Source of the DNA: an uncultured Bacteroidales bacterium | GTDB lineage: Bacteria; Bacteroidota; Bacteroidia; Bacteroidales; UBA932 | Direction of reading: 5' to 3' | NCBI GenBank assembly: GCA_946616385.1 | Contig: CAMOIZ010000002.1 | Span: 1-32,929 of the forward strand | DNA length: 32,929 nucleotides | Part shown: in pieces, positions 2,234 through 21,308 of the stretch | Position numbering within the stretch: position 1 is the stretch's first letter | Layout: each line of letters opens with the position of its first letter | Position numbers and translations under genes: made by a program | Notes under the pieces: generated by a model | What the model was told of the DNA's origin: nothing | The model's database searches: none | What the model saw: the letters and a program-made list of their open reading frames with translations, nothing else

Positions 2234-5200
2234 ATGAAATCATTATTCCGCGCTTTCACATTTGCTATATGCATCATTCTATGCTTCTCTGAGTGCAAGA
2301 ACGCTTCAAAGGCGCCCGAAACCGACTTTGCCCCATACATTTCCGCTTACACGGGAGGGGTGATCTCAGAAGACGCCTCGATCAGAATCGACCTTGCCCG
2401 CGAAGTTCCGGAACAGGCCCGCACGACAGACGGACTCTTCTCTTTCTCCCCTTCCGTCAAGGGCTCCGTGAGATGGACAAGCCCCGCTTCTGTCATATTT
2501 TTTCCCGACCAGGGAGCCTTGACTCCAGGCAAGAACTACAAGGCCGTTTTCAATCTCGGGAAAGTTCTGGATGTGGAAAAGAAGTCCCTGAAGACCTTCA
2601 AATTCGGCTTTACCGTTAAAGGTGCCGATACGAAGGAGGTGTCCGAAAACGCTTCCGGAGAAATACCCGGAAACGGATTCCACATTTCGGCGGCGTACAT
2701 TTCCGGAACAGGAAATCCCCATATCGAAATCGTGTTCTCCGGCACACCGGCAAACGCATTGAAAAAGGGCCTCATCGAGCTTGAAGGTGCTTCCCGCTTC
2801 TACACGGAGCAGCAAGGTTCCGTGATAAACGTGTTTTACGAAGACGTCGGAAAGGATATCACGCTCAAAGTCTCGTCCAGTGTAAAGGATGCCTCCGGAG
2901 CCACTCTGGGTCAGGATTTCGTCAAGGTATTCCCTCTCGGAGATATTCCTCCGGCAGTTGAAATCGCCCTTCAGGGCCAGATTCTCCCGAATGAAGGAGA
3001 CCTTGTACTTCCTTTCCGCGCGGTCAACCTCGCCGCCGTCGAACTCCGCATAGTAAAGATATATCCGGGCAACGTGCTAATGTTCCTGCAAGACAACGAC
3101 CTCGGCGAAGAAGAGTACCTGCGCAGGGCCGGACGTCTTGTGTGCCATAAGGATATAGCACTGGATCCCAAATACGACCTGCATACCTGGAACAACTTCT
3201 CCATCGACCTTTCCGGTCTGCTCAGAAAGGATCCGGGCGCCATCTACCGCATAAGGCTCTCGTTCAGGGAGGATCAGTCGCTGTATGGCGGCAGGACTCC
3301 GGACAATGTCGTCAAGATGTCCGACGGCACTCCGGACGCAAAAGACGAAGCCATCTGGGATTCCGCCCAGCCGTGGTACTGGGACAACGACTACGACTGG
3401 AACAATTACAAGTATAAGGAACGCAACGACCCTACCAGGCCTTCCTATTTCATGGAGTCGTCCCGCTTCCCCGTTGCGCAGCTGCTGACCTCGGACCTGG
3501 GGCTCGTGGCCAAATACGCGGGAGGTGATAAAATCTGGGTGGGTGCCAACAATCTCATTACCGCCAAGCCGGCTGCAGGCGTGCAACTGACCGTATATGA
3601 TTTCCAGCTTCAGAAAATCGGCCAGGCAAGGACAGGTTCCGACGGCATGGTGGAGATTCCTGTTTCCCGCCGTCCCTTCGTTGTCACCGGCACATCCGGC
3701 AACTCTGTCACCTATCTTAAAGTCAACGACGGCAACGAAAAATCGCTGAGCCGCTTCGACACCGGAGGCGAAACCGTTGGACACGGTCTAAAGGCTTTCA
3801 TCTACGGGGAACGTGGCGTTTGGCGTCCGGGCGATACCTTGCATCTCACCATGATTCTTCAGTCGAAGGATGCCGAACTTCCCTCCGCCCATCCGGCCAC
3901 TCTCGAATTATACACTCCGGAAGGACAGTTCCACTCAAGACTGGTACGTCAGGGGCTGAACGGATTCTACGCATTCGATATCCCCACTTCCGCCGATGAT
4001 CCAACAGGATTCTGGAACGCATACGTGAAAGTTGGAGGAAGTTCATTCCACAAGACACTTCACATTGAAACGATCAAACCCAACCGCCTGAAAATCAATA
4101 TCGATTATGGTTCGGAACCTCTGGTTGCCGGAAGCACGGTGACAGTTCCCATTTCCGCTTCATGGCTGACCGGATCCCCGGCTTCCGGCCTGAAGGCAAG
4201 GGCGGTGATGACCCTGCGGAGGTCGTCCTCACAGCTGCGCGGATACGAGAAATACAGTTTCACGGTCCCCGGTGCTGAATTCACCTCAACCGAGACCAAA
4301 CTATTCGAAACCAAGCTGAATTCGGAAGGAAAAGCTTATGTGGGCTTACAGCTTCCTCCCGCAGCCAACGCCCCCGGCATGCTGAATGCCACCATCATGA
4401 CAGCGGTCCAGGAAGATGCCGGAGACGAAAGTTTCACCACCGCGACCGTTCCTTTCTCGCCATACACTGCATACGTCGGCGTCAGGATTCCGGATGAAGA
4501 TTATCTCGAAACCGACAAAGACCAGACTATTCGATTCGCCGTGGTCGGTCCGGACGGCAAGCGCATCTCCGGACACAAACTGGAATACCGCATCTTCAAG
4601 ACAGGCTGGAACTGGTGGCTGGAGAATTCCGCGACCGAACTCGATTCCTACGTAAACGGATCCTCGGTGCAGCTGGTATCCGGAGGCACCCTCGTTTCCG
4701 GCAACTCCGACGTCACCTGCACGGTGAGGGTGAATTATCCTGACTGGGGACGCTTCATCGTTATAGTAAAGGACCTCGACAGCGGTCATGTAAGCGGCAG
4801 AAGCTTCATCATAGACTGGCCTGAATACAGGGGCCGTGCAGACAGACGGGACCCCGAGAATCTCACGATGCTCACCTTCTCTACCGACAAATCTTCATAC
4901 AAGGTCGGTGAAAAGGCGACCGTATACCTCCCTGCCGCTCCCGGCGGACAGGCTCTCATATCGGTCGAGAATTCTACCAGAGTTCTTTCTTCTTCCTGGG
5001 TTTCAACCGGAGATACCGACCGTGCGTGGAGCATGCAGGTGACTGAAGACATGGCTCCTGACTTCTACATTCATGTGACTCTCGTGCAGCCGCGAGGAAA
5101 GGTCGCAAACGAGCTCCCCGTAAGGTTATATGGAGTTCAGCGTGTGTTGGTAGAGAATCCTCAGTCGCATCTGCATCCGGTGCTCGACATGCCCGGGGCC

Positions 5201-7354
5201 CTGCATCCGGAAGAGGAATTCACCCTGAGCGTGAGCGAGACTTCCGGACGCCCGATGACCTACACCCTCGCGATAGTAGACGAAGGCCTGCTCGATCTCA
5301 CCGCCTTCAAGACCCCGGATCCTTGGAAGGCCATGAACAAGGTGGAAGCGCTGGGCGTACGCACATGGGACATGTACGACAACGTGATAGGAATTCTGGG
5401 CGGACAATTTGCGAAGATTGCAGCAATCGGCGGCGACCAGGACAACATAGTCTCCGCCCGCAACGACAACCGCTTCAATCCCGTAGTCTACGTTCTCCCT
5501 CCCAGCCAGCTTGCCAAAGGCGCCAAGGCTAAACACAAGATCAAGCTTCCGATGTATGTCGGAAGCGTAAGGGTGATGCTTGTAGCCGGCCAGGGAAAGG
5601 CCTTCGGCAATGCCGAAAAGACCGTGCCCGTCACAGCACCTCTCATGATTCTGCCTACTGCTCCCCGCACATTGAGTCCCGGAGAGGAAATCCAGCTTCC
5701 CGTGAACGTGTTCGCGATGGAAGACGGCATCCGCTCCGCTGATGTGAGCGTAGACATCAAAGGTCCCGTGGAACTCACCGGCAATCGGAAGCAGACCATT
5801 ACATTCAACGGAAAGGGCGACCAGCTGGTGCGTTTCGCCCTGAAGGCGAATGGAGAAGGCACGGCGACCATTACCGTGAATGCTTCCGGCGCAGGTCACA
5901 AGGCTTATGAGACGGTCAGCATCCCCGTGGCGAATCCCAATCCGGTACGCGCTACTGTAACGCGCAGAGAACTTCCCGCAGGCGCGACAGCATCATTCAC
6001 TCCTGCAGGAACATCCTACCTCCAGCTTACGGCCTTCCCGGCTTTCGATGCAAGGGCTTTGTATCAGGAGATGCTCTCTTACCCCTACAATTGCTCCGAA
6101 CAACTTGCTGCACGCGGTCTTTCGTTCCTGCATCTGGCTTCATTCCTCGGAGAAAAACCCGATGCAGCGCAGATAGACGCCATTGTCCGGCAGCTCTATT
6201 CCAGGCAGAATGCCGACGGCGGCTTCGGCTACTGGAATGGAGGATCCAGCAATTCATGGGTCAGTTCAATGGCCGGACTCTTCCTTTCTGAAGCCGCAAA
6301 GTCGGGCTATACGGTCGACAGGACAGTCCTCCAGACATGGACCCGTTACCAGCAGAAACTGTCGAACGCATACAGGATAGCCGGAAATTCGGCATTCCCC
6401 CATCTGGACGAGGCATTCAGGCTTTATACCCTGGCCGCGGCCGGCTCCCCCTCGACCGCATCTATGAACAGACTGAAAGAAGACGATTCCATCGGCTACA
6501 GGGCAAAGTGGATGCTCGCTTCGGCCTACGCCCTTTGCGGCAAGAAGCAGGTTGCAAGCGACATGATCGCAAAGATCGACCGTTCCTTCGAGAACGGGAA
6601 TCCTTACAACATCACTTTCGGCACCTCGCTCCGCGACAAGTTCCTTGCCCTTGAAGCGATGGCTCTTACATCCAATCTTGCCGAAGCTATCCCCCTTGCC
6701 CAGGAACTCGTGTCGGAAAAAGACCTTTCAACACAGGAGACGGCATTCGCCGCAATAGCGTTCGACCGCCTGCGCAGCGAATTGTCCGCATCTTCGGTGA
6801 AGGCGACGGTCGGCGGCAGGCAGATCAGCGCCAAGGCACAGGTCTCTGTGCCCGTAGAAAGCAAGGTAGATGTGAAGAACACTTCGGACGGACCACTGTA
6901 TCTCACATTCGTAGATCTGGTCAAGGATCCTGCAGGGACTTCAGTTCCTGCCACGTCGAACGGACTCTCGCTAAGCGTGAGATACGAATCCGGCGGAAAG
7001 GTCATCAACGCATCGGAGTTGCGCCAGGGCATGCTGTTCACGGCTGTAGCCGAGGTGAAGAACCTTTCCAAAGTATCTGATTACGACATGCTTGCACTCT
7101 CGCTCAACATTCCTTCCGGCTGGGAAATACAGAATGAAAGACTTATGGGCGGAAGTGACGTTACCGCCGACATTCGCGATGACCGCTGCGACTGGTTCTT
7201 CTCGCTCGAAAAGGGTCGTAGCAAGGTATTCAGGCTCTCGCTTCGCGCAGCATACGAAGGTTCCTACATTCTTCCTTCGTCCAAGTGCAGCGCCATGTAC
7301 GAGCCCGAAATATCTGCCTGCACAGCGTCTTCCAATACGGAAGTCGTGCGATGA
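2234..7354 (+). CDS. Alpha-2-macroglobulin family protein with CxEQ thioester motif
   Basis: 1707 aa from ATG 2234. MG-like domains, GERGVWRPGDTLHLTMIL, bait/A2M region, and YPYNCSEQLAARGLSFL thioester motif (CSEQ at 6092-6103). Overlaps a PBP1C gene by 4 nt, the classic bacterial A2M-pbpC pairing. Confidence 0.93.
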   Translation: MKSLFRAFTFAICIILCFSECKNASKAPETDFAPYISAYTGGVISEDASIRIDLAREVPEQARTTDGLFSFSPSVKGSVRWTSPASVIFFPDQGALTPGKNYKAVFNLGKVLDVEKKSLKTFKFGFTVKGADTKEVSENASGEIPGNGFHISAAYISGTGNPHIEIVFSGTPANALKKGLIELEGASRFYTEQQGSVINVFYEDVGKDITLKVSSSVKDASGATLGQDFVKVFPLGDIPPAVEIALQGQILPNEGDLVLPFRAVNLAAVELRIVKIYPGNVLMFLQDNDLGEEEYLRRAGRLVCHKDIALDPKYDLHTWNNFSIDLSGLLRKDPGAIYRIRLSFREDQSLYGGRTPDNVVKMSDGTPDAKDEAIWDSAQPWYWDNDYDWNNYKYKERNDPTRPSYFMESSRFPVAQLLTSDLGLVAKYAGGDKIWVGANNLITAKPAAGVQLTVYDFQLQKIGQARTGSDGMVEIPVSRRPFVVTGTSGNSVTYLKVNDGNEKSLSRFDTGGETVGHGLKAFIYGERGVWRPGDTLHLTMILQSKDAELPSAHPATLELYTPEGQFHSRLVRQGLNGFYAFDIPTSADDPTGFWNAYVKVGGSSFHKTLHIETIKPNRLKINIDYGSEPLVAGSTVTVPISASWLTGSPASGLKARAVMTLRRSSSQLRGYEKYSFTVPGAEFTSTETKLFETKLNSEGKAYVGLQLPPAANAPGMLNATIMTAVQEDAGDESFTTATVPFSPYTAYVGVRIPDEDYLETDKDQTIRFAVVGPDGKRISGHKLEYRIFKTGWNWWLENSATELDSYVNGSSVQLVSGGTLVSGNSDVTCTVRVNYPDWGRFIVIVKDLDSGHVSGRSFIIDWPEYRGRADRRDPENLTMLTFSTDKSSYKVGEKATVYLPAAPGGQALISVENSTRVLSSSWVSTGDTDRAWSMQVTEDMAPDFYIHVTLVQPRGKVANELPVRLYGVQRVLVENPQSHLHPVLDMPGALHPEEEFTLSVSETSGRPMTYTLAIVDEGLLDLTAFKTPDPWKAMNKVEALGVRTWDMYDNVIGILGGQFAKIAAIGGDQDNIVSARNDNRFNPVVYVLPPSQLAKGAKAKHKIKLPMYVGSVRVMLVAGQGKAFGNAEKTVPVTAPLMILPTAPRTLSPGEEIQLPVNVFAMEDGIRSADVSVDIKGPVELTGNRKQTITFNGKGDQLVRFALKANGEGTATITVNASGAGHKAYETVSIPVANPNPVRATVTRRELPAGATASFTPAGTSYLQLTAFPAFDARALYQEMLSYPYNCSEQLAARGLSFLHLASFLGEKPDAAQIDAIVRQLYSRQNADGGFGYWNGGSSNSWVSSMAGLFLSEAAKSGYTVDRTVLQTWTRYQQKLSNAYRIAGNSAFPHLDEAFRLYTLAAAGSPSTASMNRLKEDDSIGYRAKWMLASAYALCGKKQVASDMIAKIDRSFENGNPYNITFGTSLRDKFLALEAMALTSNLAEAIPLAQELVSEKDLSTQETAFAAIAFDRLRSELSASSVKATVGGRQISAKAQVSVPVESKVDVKNTSDGPLYLTFVDLVKDPAGTSVPATSNGLSLSVRYESGGKVINASELRQGMLFTAVAEVKNLSKVSDYDMLALSLNIPSGWEIQNERLMGGSDVTADIRDDRCDWFFSLEKGRSKVFRLSLRAAYEGSYILPSSKCSAMYEPEISACTASSNTEVVR

Positions 7355-9492
7355 AACACAGGCGGAGATGGCTGATTGCAGGGGGCGTCCTGTTGTTGGG
7401 GCTGATAATCGCCTCTCCCGGACGTCCCTTTGCAAGTGTGCCATACTCCACCGTGGTCACGGATTCGGAAGGGCAGCTGCTCGGAGCCAGGATAGCCTCC
7501 GACGGACAATGGCGTTTTCCCCCGTCGGACACCATCCCTGCAAGATTCAAGACCGCTCTTCTGCAATTTGAAGACAGGCATTTCTACTATCATCCAGGCG
7601 TGGATCCCTTTGCGCTTGTCCGCGCTCTGGCAGGCAATCTGAAGGCCGGGCATGTTACCAGCGGCGGAAGCACCATCACGATGCAGGTGATCCGCCTCTC
7701 GCGGGGAAGGGAACGTACAATCATGCAGAAGTGCATCGAATCGCTGCAGGCCGTGCTGCTGGAATGCCGGTATTCCAAAAAGAGGATTCTGGGCATGTAC
7801 TGCGCCCACGCCCCCTTCGGAGGCAATGTAGTAGGGCTTGAGGCGGCCGCCTGGCGGTATTTCGGCCGGCCGGCCGCGGAACTGTCCTGGGGAGAAGCCG
7901 CCACTCTGGCGGTACTGCCGAATTCCCCGGCATCGATCCACCCCGGCAAAAACAGGGACAAGCTTCTCGCAAAGCGGAACCGCCTTCTCCGGCGTCTTTG
8001 CGACAAGGGTTTCCTAAGCGAAGAAAGTTGCGCGCTGGCCATGGAAGAACCTTTGCCCGATGCCCCCCTTCCACTCCCCTCCCATGCCGCACATTTTGTA
8101 GCATCCGCACCCGAAGGTGTGCTCACACGCAGCAGCCTGAAACTCGACCTGCAGACTAAGGCGGAAGAAATCGCCCGGCGTCAAAGCGACGAACTGGCCC
8201 GGAACGGCATTGCCGACCTCTCCATAATCATTCTCGACAACAAAACAGGGCTCCCCGTGGCATGGTGCGGAAATGCATCCCCGGAAAGGAAAAGGCCGGG
8301 AGCGCAGGTAGACATCGCTTCATCGCCCAGGTCAACGGGCAGCATCCTCAAACCCTTCCTGTTCTGCGCAGCCCTTCAGGAAGGACTCATCCTGCCCGGG
8401 ACCCTGTTGAAAGACACTCCCGTGAGCCTGAACGGATTCTCTCCGCAGAACTTCGACCAGAAGTTCTATGGGGCGGTGCCGGCTTCGAAGGCTCTTTCGA
8501 GATCGCTGAACGTGCCCGCAGTGCACCTGTTACGTGAATACGGCGTCCCTCGCTTTCACACCCTGCTGCGCAATGCAGGCCTCACTACCCTCACGAAAGA
8601 CGCTTCATGGTATGGTCTGTCACTTATTCTCGGAGGCGCCGAAGCGACCCTCAAGGAAATCACCGGCCTATACTGTTCATTGGTACGGAGTTACACCGGT
8701 GCAATCGACTTCCCCATCAACGACAAGGTTGCCATCTGGTATACTTTTGAAGCCTTGAAAGACGTCAACCGGCCGGATGAATTGGATTGGCATCTGCTTC
8801 CTTCCCTGCGTAAAGCGGCATGGAAGACCGGAACTAGCTACGGGTTCCGCGATGCTTGGGCAGTAGGGATGACTCCCGATTATACCGTGGGAGTATGGGC
8901 CGGGAATGCGGAGGGGCAGGGCGTGCCCGGACTGACAGGCGCAAGCACCGCGGGCCCTGTCCTTTTCGACGTTTTCAACATGTTGCCGGCATCGCCGGAA
9001 TGGTTCGACGAGCCCGACGGCGGAATCTTTGCCGAGGTCTGCCCCGAATCCGGGCATCTTCGCGGGCCCGACTGCCCGTCCGGAACCGAAATGCTGCTTC
9101 CCGCCGCAGCCCTGGAAAGCGAGCCTTGCCCTTACCATGACGGCGGTGTTTTCGTCCTCCCTCCCGCAATGGAATGGTACTACAGGCAATATCATCCTGA
9201 ATATACCGTTCCGAAGACGGAAAAGAAACAGATGGAATTCATCTACCCCGAAAACGGCAGCATGCTGACCATTCCAAGGCAGCTGAACGGCGAAGTGGAA
9301 GGCATTGCATTCCAGCTTGCGGTACGCGACGCATCCGGACCTGTATGGTGGCATATGGATGGAGAATACGTGGGCGAAACCCGTTTCATGCACAGCCTGC
9401 GGCTGCTCCCGGGACCAGGCCGGCATACCATCGTTGCAGTAGACCCCGAAGGAAGCACGGCCTCGGTGCAGTTTACAGTGACTGATAATTGA
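7351..9492 (+). CDS. pbpC: Penicillin-binding protein 1C (bifunctional transglycosylase/transpeptidase)
   Basis: Start overlaps the A2M stop (ATGA). Transglycosylase FEDRHFYYHPGVDPFALVRAL and GGSTITMQVIRLSRG; transpeptidase SILK (STGSILKPF), SLN, KTGTS; C-terminal PBP1C-like domain. Confidence 0.93.
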   Translation: MKHRRRWLIAGGVLLLGLIIASPGRPFASVPYSTVVTDSEGQLLGARIASDGQWRFPPSDTIPARFKTALLQFEDRHFYYHPGVDPFALVRALAGNLKAGHVTSGGSTITMQVIRLSRGRERTIMQKCIESLQAVLLECRYSKKRILGMYCAHAPFGGNVVGLEAAAWRYFGRPAAELSWGEAATLAVLPNSPASIHPGKNRDKLLAKRNRLLRRLCDKGFLSEESCALAMEEPLPDAPLPLPSHAAHFVASAPEGVLTRSSLKLDLQTKAEEIARRQSDELARNGIADLSIIILDNKTGLPVAWCGNASPERKRPGAQVDIASSPRSTGSILKPFLFCAALQEGLILPGTLLKDTPVSLNGFSPQNFDQKFYGAVPASKALSRSLNVPAVHLLREYGVPRFHTLLRNAGLTTLTKDASWYGLSLILGGAEATLKEITGLYCSLVRSYTGAIDFPINDKVAIWYTFEALKDVNRPDELDWHLLPSLRKAAWKTGTSYGFRDAWAVGMTPDYTVGVWAGNAEGQGVPGLTGASTAGPVLFDVFNMLPASPEWFDEPDGGIFAEVCPESGHLRGPDCPSGTEMLLPAAALESEPCPYHDGGVFVLPPAMEWYYRQYHPEYTVPKTEKKQMEFIYPENGSMLTIPRQLNGEVEGIAFQLAVRDASGPVWWHMDGEYVGETRFMHSLRLLPGPGRHTIVAVDPEGSTASVQFTVTDN

Positions 9493-9506: not shown

Positions 9507-12329
9507 ATGAAACATATCCTGACCACTATTTCCCTTTGTCTGATTGCCGCATCGGCTATTGCTGCAAAACCTAAAACCACCTCCAATGACATTGACAGGC
9601 TGTTCAGCAGCCCGGAGATGCAAAACAGACCATTTGTGAGATGGTGGTGGAATGGAGACCGCGTGGAGCCCTCCGAAATTATCAGGGAACTGGGAATAAT
9701 GCACGAAGCAGGCATCGGCGGGGTGGAGATCAGCCCCATAGAATTCCCTTCAGGTGCAGACACGGTTGGCAGAAAGGCACTGGAATACCTCAGCCCGGAA
9801 TGGCTGGAATGCCTTCAGACCGCATTCGACGAAACCAAACGGCTTGGTATGTACTGCGACCTGCTGATAGGTTCCGGCTGGCCTTTCGGCTCTGAAAGCT
9901 TGCCAAAGGAAGACAGGGCATCAATACTCATCACCACTGCCGATTCCCTCTCTTCCCGGCATCTGGAAATATCGAAATTCGCACTTATAAAACAGGCCGA
10001 TCCCCTTACGACCGTAACCAACCCGAGACGCACGGCGGAGGTGCTTAAAGCGATGCTGGTCCCCCAGGGCATCGGATCCCTTGAAGATGCCATTGACGTT
10101 AGCGACAGATTCCGCGGCGATATTCTCGACATCGACATCCCCGAAGGCGTATGGTGGCTGTACAGCCTTATCCGTTTCGATTCTTTCGCGAGCGTCATCA
10201 ACGGTGCCCCCGGAGCTGCAGGCAGCCAGATCGATTATATGAATGCCGATGCCATCCGGCGTTATCTCGATCATATGGCAGAGAGCATCGAGGCAAAGAC
10301 AGGCCCGCTCAACGGGCATCTGCGTGCTTTTTTTGTCGACAATATGGAACTCGAAGGATGCAACTGGACCTCCGACTTCGCAGAGGAATTCCTCAAACGC
10401 AGGGGCTATGACATAATGCCATGGTTCCCTTTCATAATGTTCAAGATGGGGCGCCTCGGGGATGTTTCCGACTACAGCTTCGGGGCTGAAAAGACTCCGG
10501 AATTCGAGAATCTCGTGCAACGCGCACGATACGACTTCGAAATCACCCGCATGGAGCTCAATTACGAGCGTTATACTGAGACCTTCCTCGCCTGGTGCAA
10601 GGAGAAGGGCGTTAAAGCCAGGGCGCAGGCCTATGGACGCGGCTTCTGGCCTCTTGATTCATCCCTCGGCTACGACATTCCCGAAGGTGAATCCTGGACT
10701 ACCAACTGGCTCAAGCACCGCCTTGGCGAAGAGATGGGAGACGACGACTACCGCCGCGGACGCGGATATACCATGGTCAACAAATACGTATCTTCCGCCG
10801 CCCACCTTGCAGGAAAGCGAATAGTCAGCGCCGAGGAGATGACCAATACCTACAAGGTGTTCAACGTGCCATTGGAGTTCCTGAAAGTCGGCTCCGACAT
10901 GGCCGCATTTTCCGGCATCACCCACTCGGTCTGGCACGGATTCAATTACTCCCCTCCCGACGCCCCCTTTCCGGGCTGGGTACAATACGGCACATTCCAC
11001 AACGAACGCAACACATGGTGGCCTTTCGTGAAGCATCTTAACGACTACAGGGCCCGCCTGAGCGCAATCCTTCAGAACACGGACATGGTCACCGACATCG
11101 CCATCCTGCCTGCGAACGGCGACCTCTGGAGCGAACTCGGGGCCCAGAACGAGCCCTTCCCCACGGCGCTCAACATTACCTATACATCAATGGTATGGGA
11201 AGCGGTGCATAAAAACGGTGGCGGCGCCGATTACGTGAGCGAAGGAATACTTCGCGATGCAAGCATCAAAGACGGGCATCTCTGCTACGGCCCCAAGGCC
11301 TACAAGGTGCTGTTCATCGTCGAAAACAAGGGTATGGACGAAGACGCCCTCGCCAAGATAGAAGAATTCGTAAAGGGTGGAGGCAGGGTTTTCTGCATTG
11401 GATGCATGCCACACAAGAGTCTGGGCCTCAAGGATTTCAGTTTGCGAGATAAAGATATCAAGACAAGGATCGAAACACTTCGGGAGGCATTCCCTGAAAG
11501 GCTTGTCCTGCTTCCCAAAGCAGGGAACGATGCTTATCTTGAGTGGTATACCGAAGTGCAGAGCCGCTATGGTCTCCCCCATTTCGTAAGTATCTCGAAT
11601 CCGGACAGATTCCTCCTTCAGAACCATTACAAGGCCGATGACGGCTCGCACTGGTTCCTGTTTGCGAATGCCAGCTTCTCCGCAAGGCAGAGTACAATGC
11701 TGGAATTCGATCCATCAATATGCAAAGGGAGGAAGGCCTGGGTATACAACCCATCCGACGGCAGGAAATACCGTCTGAAAATGGAGGGAAACAAAGTCCG
11801 TCTCGAACTCGGGCCTTCTGAAACCATCGTGATAGCCTTCAACAAACTTGGAGGGAAAGCCCCTGAATGGAAACAGCTGCCACCGCGCCAGGGAGCCGGC
11901 ACAAAGATTTGCGGTTGGACGGTGGAACTGCGCAATCCTCAAGTAGATACCCTGATCCGCTTCGAGTGCGACACTCTCGCCGACCTCAAGGACAGCCATC
12001 CGGCCTTCATGGGCACGGCAACATATACGGCAAGCATCAAGCTCTCGGACTCCATTCCCTCATACATCGACCTGGGCAAGGTCTGCGACATAGCCGAACT
12101 CCGCATCAATGGCAAGGATGCCGGACTTCGCTGGTGGGGGGAATCCGTTTTTGAAACCGAAGGTTTGCTGCATGAAGGTGTGAACACCATCGAGATAAGG
12201 GTAACCACCATGATGGGCAATTACGTACGTTCGTTAGGTAATGAGAATTCCGCCGCCAGACGCTTCATCCTGCGCAGGAACCATCCGCTTGTATCTGCAG
12301 GTCTCCTCGGACCGGTGATACTATATTAA
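9507..12329 (+). CDS. Secreted glycoside hydrolase, alpha-L-rhamnosidase-like (GH106-type)
   Basis: Signal peptide MKHILTTISLCLIAASAIAA; MQNRPFVRWWWNGDRVEPSEIIRELGIMHEAGIGGVEISPIEF is characteristic of GH106-like enzymes; C-terminal beta-sandwich-like region. Confidence 0.8.
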   Translation: MKHILTTISLCLIAASAIAAKPKTTSNDIDRLFSSPEMQNRPFVRWWWNGDRVEPSEIIRELGIMHEAGIGGVEISPIEFPSGADTVGRKALEYLSPEWLECLQTAFDETKRLGMYCDLLIGSGWPFGSESLPKEDRASILITTADSLSSRHLEISKFALIKQADPLTTVTNPRRTAEVLKAMLVPQGIGSLEDAIDVSDRFRGDILDIDIPEGVWWLYSLIRFDSFASVINGAPGAAGSQIDYMNADAIRRYLDHMAESIEAKTGPLNGHLRAFFVDNMELEGCNWTSDFAEEFLKRRGYDIMPWFPFIMFKMGRLGDVSDYSFGAEKTPEFENLVQRARYDFEITRMELNYERYTETFLAWCKEKGVKARAQAYGRGFWPLDSSLGYDIPEGESWTTNWLKHRLGEEMGDDDYRRGRGYTMVNKYVSSAAHLAGKRIVSAEEMTNTYKVFNVPLEFLKVGSDMAAFSGITHSVWHGFNYSPPDAPFPGWVQYGTFHNERNTWWPFVKHLNDYRARLSAILQNTDMVTDIAILPANGDLWSELGAQNEPFPTALNITYTSMVWEAVHKNGGGADYVSEGILRDASIKDGHLCYGPKAYKVLFIVENKGMDEDALAKIEEFVKGGGRVFCIGCMPHKSLGLKDFSLRDKDIKTRIETLREAFPERLVLLPKAGNDAYLEWYTEVQSRYGLPHFVSISNPDRFLLQNHYKADDGSHWFLFANASFSARQSTMLEFDPSICKGRKAWVYNPSDGRKYRLKMEGNKVRLELGPSETIVIAFNKLGGKAPEWKQLPPRQGAGTKICGWTVELRNPQVDTLIRFECDTLADLKDSHPAFMGTATYTASIKLSDSIPSYIDLGKVCDIAELRINGKDAGLRWWGESVFETEGLLHEGVNTIEIRVTTMMGNYVRSLGNENSAARRFILRRNHPLVSAGLLGPVILY

Positions 12330-13213
12330 AGCGCTTGCAACCAACGGGTTATCAGATCAACCCTGTCGGCAAATACGGAATAATCCAGAGACTCGAAGGT
12401 ATCGCTCTCACGGTTCGTGTTGAGGGTGATGCCGGAAGTGAACATCAGTACCGGGACTCCCCTGCTGAAGAAAGGCTTTTGATCGCCGACCTTGCGGTAG
12501 AACAGGTCGGTGAACGAGCGGCTGTTGTAATAATTGTAGTACAGGTGAAGAGTTTTCCCGGAGTTCAGTTTGTCGAAGCTGCGCTGATATGCGGATCCTC
12601 CGAGAATGATCAGGTAGTTCTTCCAGAATTTGTCGGGAGGGGCAAGCGAAGAGCCGAGAATATCCAGATTCACGACCATACGCAGAGGACGCTTTGCCAA
12701 TAAAGCCGCCAATGCTTCGGATCCGGCCATGTTGGCGTTGTGACCATCCACGAAGGCAATTATCACGTCGCTTCTCTCCTTGAGCTTCTCTGCTATGGCA
12801 AGCAGTGCTGCGGCTCCGGACCCGTTGCTGTCGGCGCCGGGATAAAGGCGTCCCCCCATCTTGCCTAGCCCATCGTAATATGCCATAAGCAGGATTGCCG
12901 GTTTTTTACCGTCGATGGAGCCTGCCAGGATGTTGTGTCCGACGGCATCTCCTGTCGTGCTGAAACTTTTAGTCTGCACGTCGTATCCATGATTGACCAG
13001 GCGCCTGATTATGTAGAATGCCGCCTCGTTAGCCCCCTGGCTGCCGGTTTTGCGTCCGCAGCACAGACTGTCGGAAAGAAACTCCACATCCCTTTTCAAC
13101 GATGACTCAAGACGGGTGCAATCCCCCTCATCTCCATCTGCCTGCGCCCTCAGCCCGCTCAGGAGCAGGATGAGAATGAAAAATATTTTTGCGCCACGGG
13201 CTGAAACAGGCAT
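12326..13213 (-). CDS. M28-family peptidase homologue, probably lacking catalytic residues
   Basis: Signal peptide MPVSARGAKIFFILILLLSGLRA; M28-like scaffold AILLMAYYDGLG, YPGADSNGSGAAALLAIAEKL, VNLDILGSSLAP, GVPVLMFTSG. His/Glu positions are substituted (see findings). Confidence 0.8.
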   Translation of the reverse strand: MPVSARGAKIFFILILLLSGLRAQADGDEGDCTRLESSLKRDVEFLSDSLCCGRKTGSQGANEAAFYIIRRLVNHGYDVQTKSFSTTGDAVGHNILAGSIDGKKPAILLMAYYDGLGKMGGRLYPGADSNGSGAAALLAIAEKLKERSDVIIAFVDGHNANMAGSEALAALLAKRPLRMVVNLDILGSSLAPPDKFWKNYLIILGGSAYQRSFDKLNSGKTLHLYYNYYNSRSFTDLFYRKVGDQKPFFSRGVPVLMFTSGITLNTNRESDTFESLDYSVFADRVDLITRWLQAL

Positions 13214-13222
13214 AATAAATGT

Positions 13223-13230
13223 TATATTTG
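13223..13230 (+). promoter_or_regulatory. -7 element for TPR gene
   Basis: TATATTTG, ATG at 13260. Confidence 0.55.
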
Positions 13231-13259
13231 CTTGATAGTGCAAAAGCAGCACAAAATTA

Positions 13260-15311
13260 ATGAAAAAGTTCGGGCTGGCAATATTTCTTACGATATGTCT
13301 GACATTCTGTCCGTCAGGGCTTGCCCGTGCCCAATACGACAAGGACGTTTTCTTCCTCCGCGGCAGGCAGGCATTCTCGGACGGCAAGTACGCACTTGCC
13401 ATAGAGAACTTCAATGTACTCGCCCGTCTGGACTCCACGGATTACTGGAACTTTTTCTTCCGCGGCATCTCCAAATACAATCTTGGCGACATTCGCGGGG
13501 CCCAGCAGGACTTCGACCGTTCGGTGCGCCTGAATCCCGTCTTTACAAACGGATACCACTACCGAGGCATTACCAGGAGCCGCCAAGGCCAGTATGAGGA
13601 AGGGCTTGCAGACATCAACAAGGCGATTGAACTCCGTCCGGGCTACATAGGCCTCTACTTCAGCCGCGGCATCACGTATTTCCTCGCACAGCGCTTCGAC
13701 GAGGCGGTCGAAGACTTCAACCGTTACATAAAGAAGGAACCCAAGGATCCGGGCGCCTACCTCAACCGCGGTGCCTGTTACCTTTTCCGGAAAGATACCC
13801 TCAAAGCTCTCGAAGACTACAACAAAGCCCTGAAACTCGACCGCTACGACCCCGAGGCCTACATACGGCGCGGCCGTCTCTACGCTGCCAAGCAGGATTA
13901 CGAGAAGGCCATCGGCGATCTCGATTTCGCCATCCAGCTCGATTCCTCCAACACATTCGCTTATTTCAACAGGGCCCTGATGCATGCCGACAACAATAAT
14001 CCGAAGGCTGCAATGGCAGATCTCGACAGGGTGCTGAAGGAAGAGCCCGGGAATGCCCTCACTCTCTATAACAGGAGCCTGCTGAAAGCTCAGGTCGGCG
14101 ATTTCGAAGGAGCTCTCGACGACATGGACAGGGTCATAGGCATCAACAAGGGCAATGTGCTCGCATTCTTCAACAGGGCAGGATTTTTCATCGAGATGGG
14201 CCGTTGGCAGGACGCTCTTGAAGACTACAATATGGCCATCGCCCTCTATCCCGACTTTGCAAAGGCCTACATGAACAGGTCATATGTCGAGAACAGGATG
14301 GGCCGGATGAAGGCATCCAAGGCCGATTACGAAATCGCCAGAAAAAAGGTTGCGGAGTATGAGAGCAAGAATTCCAGAGGAGAAGCGGATTTCGCCGATA
14401 CCACGCGCAAATACAGCTCCCTGCTGGCCCTTGACGCCGACTTTGCAAAGAAGGATTTCGACAACGAACTCCTCCAGCACCGCGACATCGACATCCGACT
14501 CAAGCCTCTGTTCAAGTTCAAGATCGCAGGCGACGAAAACGGCCCCGTGCAACCATTGCGCCGCGAATTCGACAATCCTCTGATAGAGCGCTTCATTTCT
14601 ATGGTGCCTGTTCCGGTCACCCTTACAAACGAAGATATCCAGGCCGTCCGGCTTAGCAGAAGTCTCTCCAGCATCCTCGCAGGCGATACCAGCAGCGGGG
14701 CCAGGGGCACTGCTCTTACTCCGGCAGAAATCAGTTTCATCCAAGGTATCTACGAAGTGCAGAACAAGCAGTACAATGCCGCCCTGGCCTGCTTCGACAA
14801 GGCGGCCAGGACTGCAGAGGACTACGTATCGAAAGACAAGTTCTCCCGTTTCTACAAAGCTTTCTATCTTATGAACCGTGGGGTACTCAAGGCGGAAATG
14901 ATTGACTTCATAGCCAGCATGGAGCGCAACGTGCAGACCCTCACGATGGATGACCAGGGAACAATACGGGCCCGGGTGAGCGACCGCATAGACCGCAACT
15001 ACGACTATTCCGAAGCCATCGACGACATGAAGGAAGCAATACGTATTCTCCCGGACATCCCCTATCTCTATTTCAACCTGGGGAACCTTTACTGCCTTTC
15101 CGGACAGATGGTGGATGCAATAGGCAATTACGACCGTGCCATAGGCATCTATCCCTACCTGGGTGACGCATATTACAACCGCGGACTCGCGCTCATATTC
15201 ATCAAGGATAAAGAAAAAGGCTGCATAGACCTTTCCCGCGCCGGAGAACTGGGCGTGGCAGATGCCTACAGCGTAATCTCCAAATACTGCAAATCAGATG
15301 ATCAGCAATAA
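13260..15311 (+). CDS. Secreted tetratricopeptide repeat protein
   Basis: Signal peptide then about ten consecutive TPR-like 34-residue units (e.g. AYLNRGACYLFRKDTLKALEDYNKALKLDRYDPEAYIRRG), a non-TPR middle and C-terminal TPRs. Confidence 0.9.
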   Translation: MKKFGLAIFLTICLTFCPSGLARAQYDKDVFFLRGRQAFSDGKYALAIENFNVLARLDSTDYWNFFFRGISKYNLGDIRGAQQDFDRSVRLNPVFTNGYHYRGITRSRQGQYEEGLADINKAIELRPGYIGLYFSRGITYFLAQRFDEAVEDFNRYIKKEPKDPGAYLNRGACYLFRKDTLKALEDYNKALKLDRYDPEAYIRRGRLYAAKQDYEKAIGDLDFAIQLDSSNTFAYFNRALMHADNNNPKAAMADLDRVLKEEPGNALTLYNRSLLKAQVGDFEGALDDMDRVIGINKGNVLAFFNRAGFFIEMGRWQDALEDYNMAIALYPDFAKAYMNRSYVENRMGRMKASKADYEIARKKVAEYESKNSRGEADFADTTRKYSSLLALDADFAKKDFDNELLQHRDIDIRLKPLFKFKIAGDENGPVQPLRREFDNPLIERFISMVPVPVTLTNEDIQAVRLSRSLSSILAGDTSSGARGTALTPAEISFIQGIYEVQNKQYNAALACFDKAARTAEDYVSKDKFSRFYKAFYLMNRGVLKAEMIDFIASMERNVQTLTMDDQGTIRARVSDRIDRNYDYSEAIDDMKEAIRILPDIPYLYFNLGNLYCLSGQMVDAIGNYDRAIGIYPYLGDAYYNRGLALIFIKDKEKGCIDLSRAGELGVADAYSVISKYCKSDDQQ

Positions 15312-18368: not shown

Positions 18369-21308
18369 ATGCTCCGCCGCTTGTCGATCGCAGCCGCATT
18401 ACTGATTGCAGCAGTCACCCCCGCCAAAGCCCAGAAAGCCATTCTGGATGCTTTCAAGCCCGCCACCGATTCTATTACAGTGCTTGCAAAAGAGCACTTC
18501 GGGGTCAGGTCGTTCATCAAGCTCAACAAGGCCATGAAACGCGGAGACCTGCTGGACCTCTATTTTACCAAGGAACTGGGCGACTATCCCTGGCGCAACG
18601 CCGACCAGCAATGGTTCCGCACACAACTAAGGGAACAGTGGCCGGATGAGGTCAAAAGTTATAAACTGGGAGGCATTTGGTGTGAATCCGTGGCACTCGA
18701 AGACCTTCTGGACCCTGAAATAAGCTACAACGGAAACCCGCGCAACTATAAATTCCGGCCCGGGAAAGTGCCTCCCCGCACCGTTTTCATCGAAGAGATA
18801 GGAGCACAGAAATTCGACCAGGGCCTGAGCGGCAGGACCGTCGCCCTATGGCAGAGCCACGGACGCTTCTACGACAACGGAACCAGACTTTGGAGCTGGC
18901 AGAGATCCCCCAACTGGCGTACTACTGAGGACCTTTATACCCAAAGCTACGTACTCCCCTTCCTTATTCCCATGCTGGAAAGGGCCGGGGCCTACGTGCT
19001 CACTCCTCGCGAACGCGACACCAACCCGATCGAGGTCATCTGCGACAACAATCCCTACTTCCGAAGCCCGGGCCTGCCCGTGCGTACCCACGGAAGCTAT
19101 AAGGAGAAGGGCAATTGGAAAGATGCAGGAGAGGGATTCGCCGACAAGAAGCAGGTATATGTGAACGAAGACAACCCCTTCACGATGGGCACAGCGCGCC
19201 AGATTGCCGCAGTAGGCGGCAAGGGCAACGCCAGCATACGTTGGAGCCCCGAACTCGAAGAGAACGGGCGCTACTGCGTCTACATCTCATACAAGAGTCT
19301 GCCCAACAGCAGCACATGCGCCAGATACACCGTAGTGCACAGAGGAGGAACCAGCGTTTTTGCCGTCAACCAGAAAATAGGCGGAGGCACCTGGATTTAT
19401 CTGGGAGAATTCGATCTCGGCCCCGATTCCTACATCATGCTCGACAACGGGACTCCTGCCGGACGCAATCACAAGGGCGGCAGCGTGGTTACCGCCGATG
19501 CTGTCAAGATAGGCGGAGGCATAGGAAAGATAGCTCGCGGACGCGGCAAGGATACATCCACCTGGGAAATCTCCGACGTGCCGGCCTACCTGGAAGGAGC
19601 CATGTACTGGGAGCAGTGGGCAGGAATGCCCTACAAGCGCATCCATCAGTGGAACAACGACTACACCTGCGACTACGCCTCCCGCGGAGAGTGGGTGAAA
19701 ATGATGAAGGACGACAAGGATCTTCCCATCGACATGTCGCTTGCCTTCCATACCGATGCAGGCGTGACCCCTAACGACTCTATCGTGGGCACCCTCTCTA
19801 TCTATACACTCAAGGCGGATGGAAGCCGCAAGTTCACCAACGGCGACAACAGGGATGCCTGCCGTCTGCTTGCAGATTTTGTGCAGACACAGATTACAAA
19901 CGACCTCCGCGCCGACTACGATTCCCTTTGGACAAGGCGGCAGATTTGGAACAGGTCTTATTCGGAATCCCGCACTACCGATGTGCCCGGCATGCTACTG
20001 GAACTACTTGCGCATCAGAACTTTGCAGACATGAAGTTCGGTCTCGATCCCGGTTTCCGCTTCGACGTGTGCCGATCTGTTTACAAGGGGATGCTGAAGT
20101 TCCTCGGCACCTACTATGGATTGACCTACAAGGTAGCTCCCCTGCCTGTAAACTCATTCTCCGCAGTATTCGGCCCTGAAGGCAAGGCACTTCTCAGCTG
20201 GGAGCCGACTCACGACACGCATGAACCCACTGCCGATCCGGATTCCTACATAGTATATACGAGAGTTGATGACGGCGCCTTCGACAACGGCAGGCCGGTG
20301 AAGGGCACTTCCGTGGAGATGCCTGTCGAAAAAGGGCATATCTACTCCTACAAGGTAGAGGCCTGCAATCGAGGCGGAAGGAGCTTTCCTTCGGAGATCC
20401 TGAGTTTGGGCATTGCTTCAGATGAGGCCAAGAAGGTTTTGGTTATCAACAATTTCGACAGAGTAAGCGCACCCTCGTGGTTTGATTCGGAGAAGTACGC
20501 CGGATTCGATGCCGCACGCGATGGAGGAGTTCCCTACATCAAGGACATCTCCTACGCCGGAGAAACATACGAATATCGCAGGGACGTGAAATATGTGAAC
20601 AACACGGCACCCGGCTTCGGAGCCACCGATACCGACATGGCCGGTTTCCAGCCTGCAGGAAATACCTTCGACTACCCTGCCGTGCACGGACGTGCTTTGC
20701 TCGATCTAGGATTCAGCTTCTGCTCCACGAGCCGCAGCGCCTTCGAGAAGGCTGCTCCCGAGCAGTATTTCGCACTCGACATCATCTGTGGCAAGCAGGT
20801 AAGCACCTTGATCGGAAATGCTCGGAAAGGCCCAAGATTCCAGGTTTTCCCGGAAGCCTTCCGCAAGGCTGTAAGCGCCTCGGCATCGGCAGGATGCAAT
20901 ATCCTTATCTCCGGAGCGTACATTGCCACCGACGCATGGGATGAACTCTATCCCATAGGAGATACGGAATATCAGGAAGAAGCGCAGTTTTTCATACGCA
21001 ACAAACTGGGTTACAGATGGGAAACTTCAAGAGGATCCGTCAATGGAAAGTTTACGTTTGACGGCAGTAATTACAGTTTCGCCCACGAGCTCAACGAGGA
21101 CAGTTATTGCGTGGAAATGGCAGGAGCCATCAGGCCTGCCGGCAGCGACGGCCGCACCATTGCCCGCTACACCAACCGCACAGGAGCTGCCGTTCATACT
21201 TCCTTCGACAGCTATGCCGTAGTTGCATGGAGCTATCCTTTGGAGTTGACCGAATCGCAAGAATCACTTAAGATAATTATCGATAAATCATTGAAATACT
21301 TTAAATAA
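18369..21308 (+). CDS. Secreted N-acetylmuramoyl-L-alanine amidase-like protein with inserted golvesin/xanthan-lyase-type domain and FN3-like C-terminal region
   Basis: Signal peptide; SHGR (His 18858-18860), TTEDLYTQ (Glu 18927-18929), SLAFHTDAG (His 19749-19751), [17 protein letters not shown] (Glu 20001-20003) match the Amidase_3 ligand/catalytic pattern. A segment resembling golvesin/xanthan lyase domains ([31 protein letters not shown]) lies between the halves. Confidence 0.75.

Follow-up and report, generated by a model that had tools for sequence, protein, structure and literature searches.

Active peptidases of family M28 bind two zinc ions through the ligands His97, Asp117, Glu152, Asp179 and His256, with Glu151 acting as the general base (site residues are numbered here as in the Aeromonas aminopeptidase). 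The family belongs to MEROPS clan MH and comprises, among others, the aminopeptidases of S. griseus and Aeromonas and LapA. More than 550 non-peptidase homologues of M28 are present in MEROPS, few of which have been characterised (PMC4000134). In DUF4910 (CA_C2195), a bacterial M28-like domain without catalytic residues is conserved as a family; its architecture includes an inserted domain plus a winged-helix domain, and a single zinc ion is retained through His, Asp and His (PMC4000134). The eukaryotic transferrin receptor and nicalin, both matched in sequence by the A1 profile, likewise have an M28-like scaffold that is not used for cleavage, and the glutaminyl cyclases of bacteria and animals show the same fold in Foldseek matches.

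The stretch of DNA analysed in this work (32,929 nucleotides, referred to as the window) harbors a gene of the M28 type, hereafter pseudo-M28, whose product falls in a clade with 105 or more members. These share with the M28 peptidases the fold, the extent of the domain, the order of the motifs and the residues Asp99, Asp117 and Asp179; however, the clade lacks Glu151 throughout and His256 in 103 of 105 members, and the window protein has also lost His97 and Glu152. It differs from DUF4910 in being single-domain, predicted to be exported and devoid of the His ligands, and the Pfam scan revealed M28 only. The transferrin receptor and nicalin are multi-domain eukaryotic membrane proteins, for which no direct kinship is claimed, whereas glutaminyl-peptide cyclotransferase keeps the zinc-binding and catalytic residues (PMC4000134) that the pseudo-M28 clade does not. 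Non-peptidase homologues of M28 being already known, what is new here is a lineage with a stepwise decay series, and the literature searched yielded no account of this clade. It is probable that the window gene encodes an exported pseudopeptidase with the M28 fold, fixed in one bacterial family, whose zinc site was dismantled stepwise and whose cleft would bind without cutting.

The degenerate M28 gene of the window

The gene and the codons of its former active site are the following:

12326-13213, minus strand: pseudo-M28 gene, 295 amino acids, with a signal-peptide-like N-terminus (MPVSARGAKIFFILILLLSGLRAQA)
12878-12880, minus strand: codon of Tyr112, replacing the zinc ligand His97 (alignment)
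12872-12874, minus strand: Asp114, equivalent to Asp99, invariant (105/105)
12830-12832, minus strand: Asp128 (in GADSN), equivalent to the bridging ligand Asp117, kept in 103/105
12740-12742, minus strand: His158, replacing the general base Glu151; Lys, His or Arg in 98/105, never Glu
12737-12739, minus strand: Asn159, replacing the ligand Glu152 (residue table of the clade)
12662-12664, minus strand: Asp184 (in NLDILG), equivalent to the ligand Asp179; Asp or Glu in 105/105
12413-12415, minus strand: Asn267, replacing the ligand His256, within the genus-specific motif TSGITxNTNKxxD (alignment)

The reading frame is open, with no internal stops, and no lipobox Cys follows the signal-peptide-like start. 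This N-terminus is the sole basis for the secretion proposed in the initial annotation, and a periplasmic location is equally possible. The only Pfam domain detected is Peptidase_M28 (PF04389; E-value 2.1e-16, 60.6 bits, above the curated cut-off of 21.3 bits). The AlphaFold2 model, built on a 44-row alignment of the locus proteins, reached a pLDDT of 94.6 and a pTM of 0.89, and its best Foldseek match in the PDB was the S. griseus aminopeptidase 1qq9 (TMq 0.71, E-value 1.3e-15), with LapA, the Aeromonas aminopeptidase and glutaminyl cyclases among the further matches. Hence the M28 scaffold recognised in the initial annotation is borne out by domain match, model and fold matches alike, and the protein, as modelled, keeps the zinc-exopeptidase fold.

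The register is clear when the protein is aligned with intact M28 sequences (HYDHLG, GADDNAS, DAEE, NLDM, and SPYHKPED or GLHPDYHKTSD): HYD has become YYD, the Glu pair His-Asn, and SPYHKPED reads TLNTNRESD. The first two substitutions had been read correctly from the DNA alone, at 12878-12880 and 12737-12742 (H158-N159), as had the two retained Asp residues D128 and D184; for the last ligand, the initial annotation had located the right region and left unnamed the residue, which is N267. The only His residues of the protein are 75, 93, 158 and 223, and no displaced His ligand was seen in its C-terminal part. Of the five two-zinc ligands just the two Asp are retained, and the place of the general base is occupied by His158. 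At the base, at Glu152 and, where covered, at His256, the nearest orthologues match the window protein, so that the substitutions are not sequencing noise. Since a His at the base is not proof by itself, the case for inactivity is built on H97, E152 and H256 being lost together.

An ordinary M28 aminopeptidase or glutaminyl cyclase, with a misleading alignment, would fit the fold, the Pfam family and the three remaining Asp; nevertheless, alignments with outgroup proteins and with intact paralogues of the same genus place the substitutions in clear motifs, and no alternative His is available in the C-terminal region, which makes this explanation extremely improbable. The window protein is probably a binding or structural protein rather than an enzyme.

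Distribution of the clade and proposed order of the losses

Whole-genome searches provided the distribution of the gene, a pattern-based scan of contigs having found only six near relatives, whose assemblies include those from goat omasum, water buffalo reticulum and other uncultured Bacteroidales. Near full-length orthologues are present in most of the 61 genomes searched from the genus of the window and also in most genera of its family, some members of which are without the gene. When the order was sampled evenly outside the family, the top score fell to 138 bits, from 272, and most matches were partial or lay in longer M28 proteins. Within this sample, the clade is confined to the family and is thus lineage-specific; the lineage may be that of the UBA932/Cryptobacteroides group. 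In the tree, constructed without the catalytic columns, a single clade embedding the 105 proteins was not rejected (p-AU 0.75).

The analysis of the site residues discloses a graded series of losses, while in 28 outgroup M28 proteins the same residues are mostly intact. Glu151 is retained in none of the 105 proteins, being replaced by Lys in 67, His in 22 and Arg in 9. His256 persists only in two distant members (L188 and L189), both without the base; its position is occupied by Tyr in most other genera and by Asn in the genus of the window, throughout which the His of a nearby SGxH motif has also changed to Thr. Glu152 and His97 are still found in 64 and 78 proteins and are absent from 41 and 27, with at least 20 and at least 14 changes in the respective columns. 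Asp99 (105/105), Asp117 (103/105) and Asp179 (Asp or Glu, 105/105) are maintained, and the window protein represents the extreme of the series, with only Asp left among ligands and base. The distribution of the residues suggests that the base Glu151 was lost first, the deepest branches (L187-L190) being not firmly placed, and His97 to Tyr and Glu152 to Asn appear to be later and recurrent changes. Therefore, the exact Tyr/His-Asn/Asn pattern, whose conservation the initial annotation had proposed to examine, is not conserved, whereas the losses of Glu151 and His256 are; Tyr at His97 is branch-specific, and the clade-wide change is that of Glu151, mostly to Lys. As raw counts, 25 of the 27 proteins without His97 also lack Glu152, but these correspond to four independent pairs on supported branches and the correlation is not significant, nor is a correlated change involving His at 158.

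In uncultured Bacteroidales from gut and rumen, an annotation based on families would label these proteins as M28 aminopeptidases; they should be left out of peptidase counts in models of metabolism or protein degradation. The graded series (the base, then His256, then Glu152 and His97) allows metal content and function to be tested step by step, and offers a useful view of a metalloenzyme turning into a pseudoenzyme.

Other M28 lines exist in the same organisms. The genus of the window also encodes M28 proteins whose site is complete (HYDHLG, GADDNAS, DAEE, YHKP; L167-L172); because intact AEE and YHKP motifs occur there, the loss of the site cannot be put down to lineage or assembly. A second degenerate lineage was observed in the family (contig C18 of genome G000, L001:1060-2265, minus strand; L122-L124; L173-L182), with the features GARLDNLG and GANGN, no Glu pair and the final His lost; a C-terminal TonB_C domain is present in L001 and L123, the two members scanned. 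These M28-TonB_C fusions, from the same genus, are like pseudo-M28 in having an M28 scaffold with a degenerate site and differ from it in belonging to a separate branch, in their substitutions and in the added domain. Both M28 genes found in the half-complete genome of the window are degenerate. In a third group of the genus (L183-L185), the bridging Asp has become Asn (GANDN) and the Glu pair Glu-Asp, the other ligands being kept.

Selective constraint and the former active-site cleft

The comparison of the window gene with four near full-length relatives gave dN/dS values of 0.13-0.25, which are approximate, as dS (1.3-1.9) is near saturation. Moreover, P192, Y229, S231, T259 and R284 and, more weakly, D156 are fixed among the clade members and not among the outgroups, pointing to a new set of positions under selection. 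The loss shared by the clade, together with purifying selection, is as expected of a conserved pseudopeptidase. It might be argued that the gene is a pseudogene whose frame is still intact and that it is heading for loss, in keeping with the repeated loss of former catalytic residues and with the family members that have no such gene. This is hardly credible, since residues specific to the family have been newly fixed; the low dN/dS, the frames, open in almost every orthologue among the matches listed, and the conserved position and putative promoter pair described below are against it too. The opinion that an intact frame speaks against simple decay is in this way reinforced, and the broader proposal, i.e., that the co-catalytic site was lost while fold and frame were kept, agrees with the alignment, the structural model, the comparison of the 105 members and the dN/dS values.

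The following scenario may be proposed. An ancestral zinc aminopeptidase of the M28 type would have first lost its general base, Glu151 being changed to a basic residue, usually Lys, and ligand His256 would have been lost next, in nearly all the descendants. In the genus of the window, Glu152 and His97 would now be undergoing repeated loss, with the three Asp of the pocket staying in place. The basic side chain at 158 might supply, opposite the Asp cluster, the positive charge once provided by the zinc ions, thus holding the old cleft together, and the cleft, re-lined by the new conserved motifs YYxSxxFT and TSGITxNTNKxxD and by Arg284, might bind a peptide or another envelope ligand with no cleavage. 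The replacement of the metal charge by the residue at 158 is suggested by the presence of a basic residue in 98 of the 105 proteins beside an invariant Asp cluster and, joined to a cleft that binds its ligand uncut, represents the most economical reading. The ligands put forward in the initial annotation, peptides or amino sugars, obtained no specific support. If this metal-free binding reading is true, the living relatives show in what sequence the site was taken apart.

On the other hand, the protein, or at least those of its relatives with HxD, GAD and NLD, might be a repurposed metalloenzyme, holding one metal at Asp117, Asp179 and His97 and catalysing a different reaction with Lys or His158 in acid-base chemistry. 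The retention of the three Asp by almost the whole clade and of His97 by 78 proteins and the prevalence of a basic residue at 158 are compatible with this idea, as are the single zinc ion of DUF4910 CA_C2195, held on an M28-like fold without catalytic residues (PMC4000134), and the E151H variant of the Aeromonas aminopeptidase, called "functional" in the title of PDB entry 2anp and in Bzymek 2005 as cited in PMC4320195. Even so, His97 is gone from the window protein and 26 others, the last ligand His from 103 of 105, and the recurrent losses of His97 and Glu152 are unlike those of a site selected for catalysis; such a conversion is therefore rather improbable. Because many relatives keep His97, Asp117 and Asp179, i.e., one complete zinc site in the classical numbering, a single metal might still be bound across the wider clade, even supposing that the window protein has lost this ability.

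Organization of the neighbouring genes

Upstream of pseudo-M28, a divergent gene and two short motifs were found:

13260-15311, plus strand: gene for an exported TPR-repeat protein, 683 amino acids, with a signal-peptide-like start and a TPR domain
13252-13259, minus strand: TAATTTTG, match to TAnnTTTG upstream of the pseudo-M28 gene
13223-13230, plus strand: TATATTTG, match to TAnnTTTG upstream of the divergent TPR gene

The sequence TAnnTTTG is the consensus of the Bacteroidetes -7 box. The 46-bp intergenic gap thus contains two back-to-back matches, a putative promoter pair, to be read against 21 matches observed in the whole window with 10.6 expected; similar pairs occur in most orthologous gaps. 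The TPR gene adjoins pseudo-M28 in 58 of the 59 loci of the genus with enough flanking sequence, and the same holds for 17 of 20 loci from other genera. Of the 19 family members examined in which a full-length pseudo-M28 match is missing, 18 still carry the TPR gene, and in genera g47 and g56 both genes are present and unlinked. An obligate pseudo-M28/TPR pair was rejected on these grounds, and a dedicated one is not established, since the TPR gene occurs alone and, in g47 and g56, unlinked. A metal-free binding protein with Lys, Arg or His as a substitute for the zinc ions, acting jointly with the TPR protein in an envelope function specific to the lineage, is a tentative and somewhat doubtful extension of the binding reading.

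In much of the genus, a run of ABC transporter, VanZ and Golvesin_C-domain genes flanks pseudo-M28 on the side opposite to the TPR gene; in the window, these genes are instead located beyond the TPR and metallo-beta-lactamase-fold genes, and the run of VanZ-like and ABC transporter genes includes one for an exported Golvesin_C-domain protein of 979 amino acids (18369-21308). A GH106 alpha-L-rhamnosidase-like gene (9507-12329) is convergent with pseudo-M28, the two ORFs overlapping by 4 bp at their stops; among the relatives, the two genes were seen side by side in the closest ones only (L003, L008). Lastly, at 2243-9492 an alpha-2-macroglobulin gene overlaps a gene of the penicillin-binding protein 1C type, which is a familiar bacterial gene pair.
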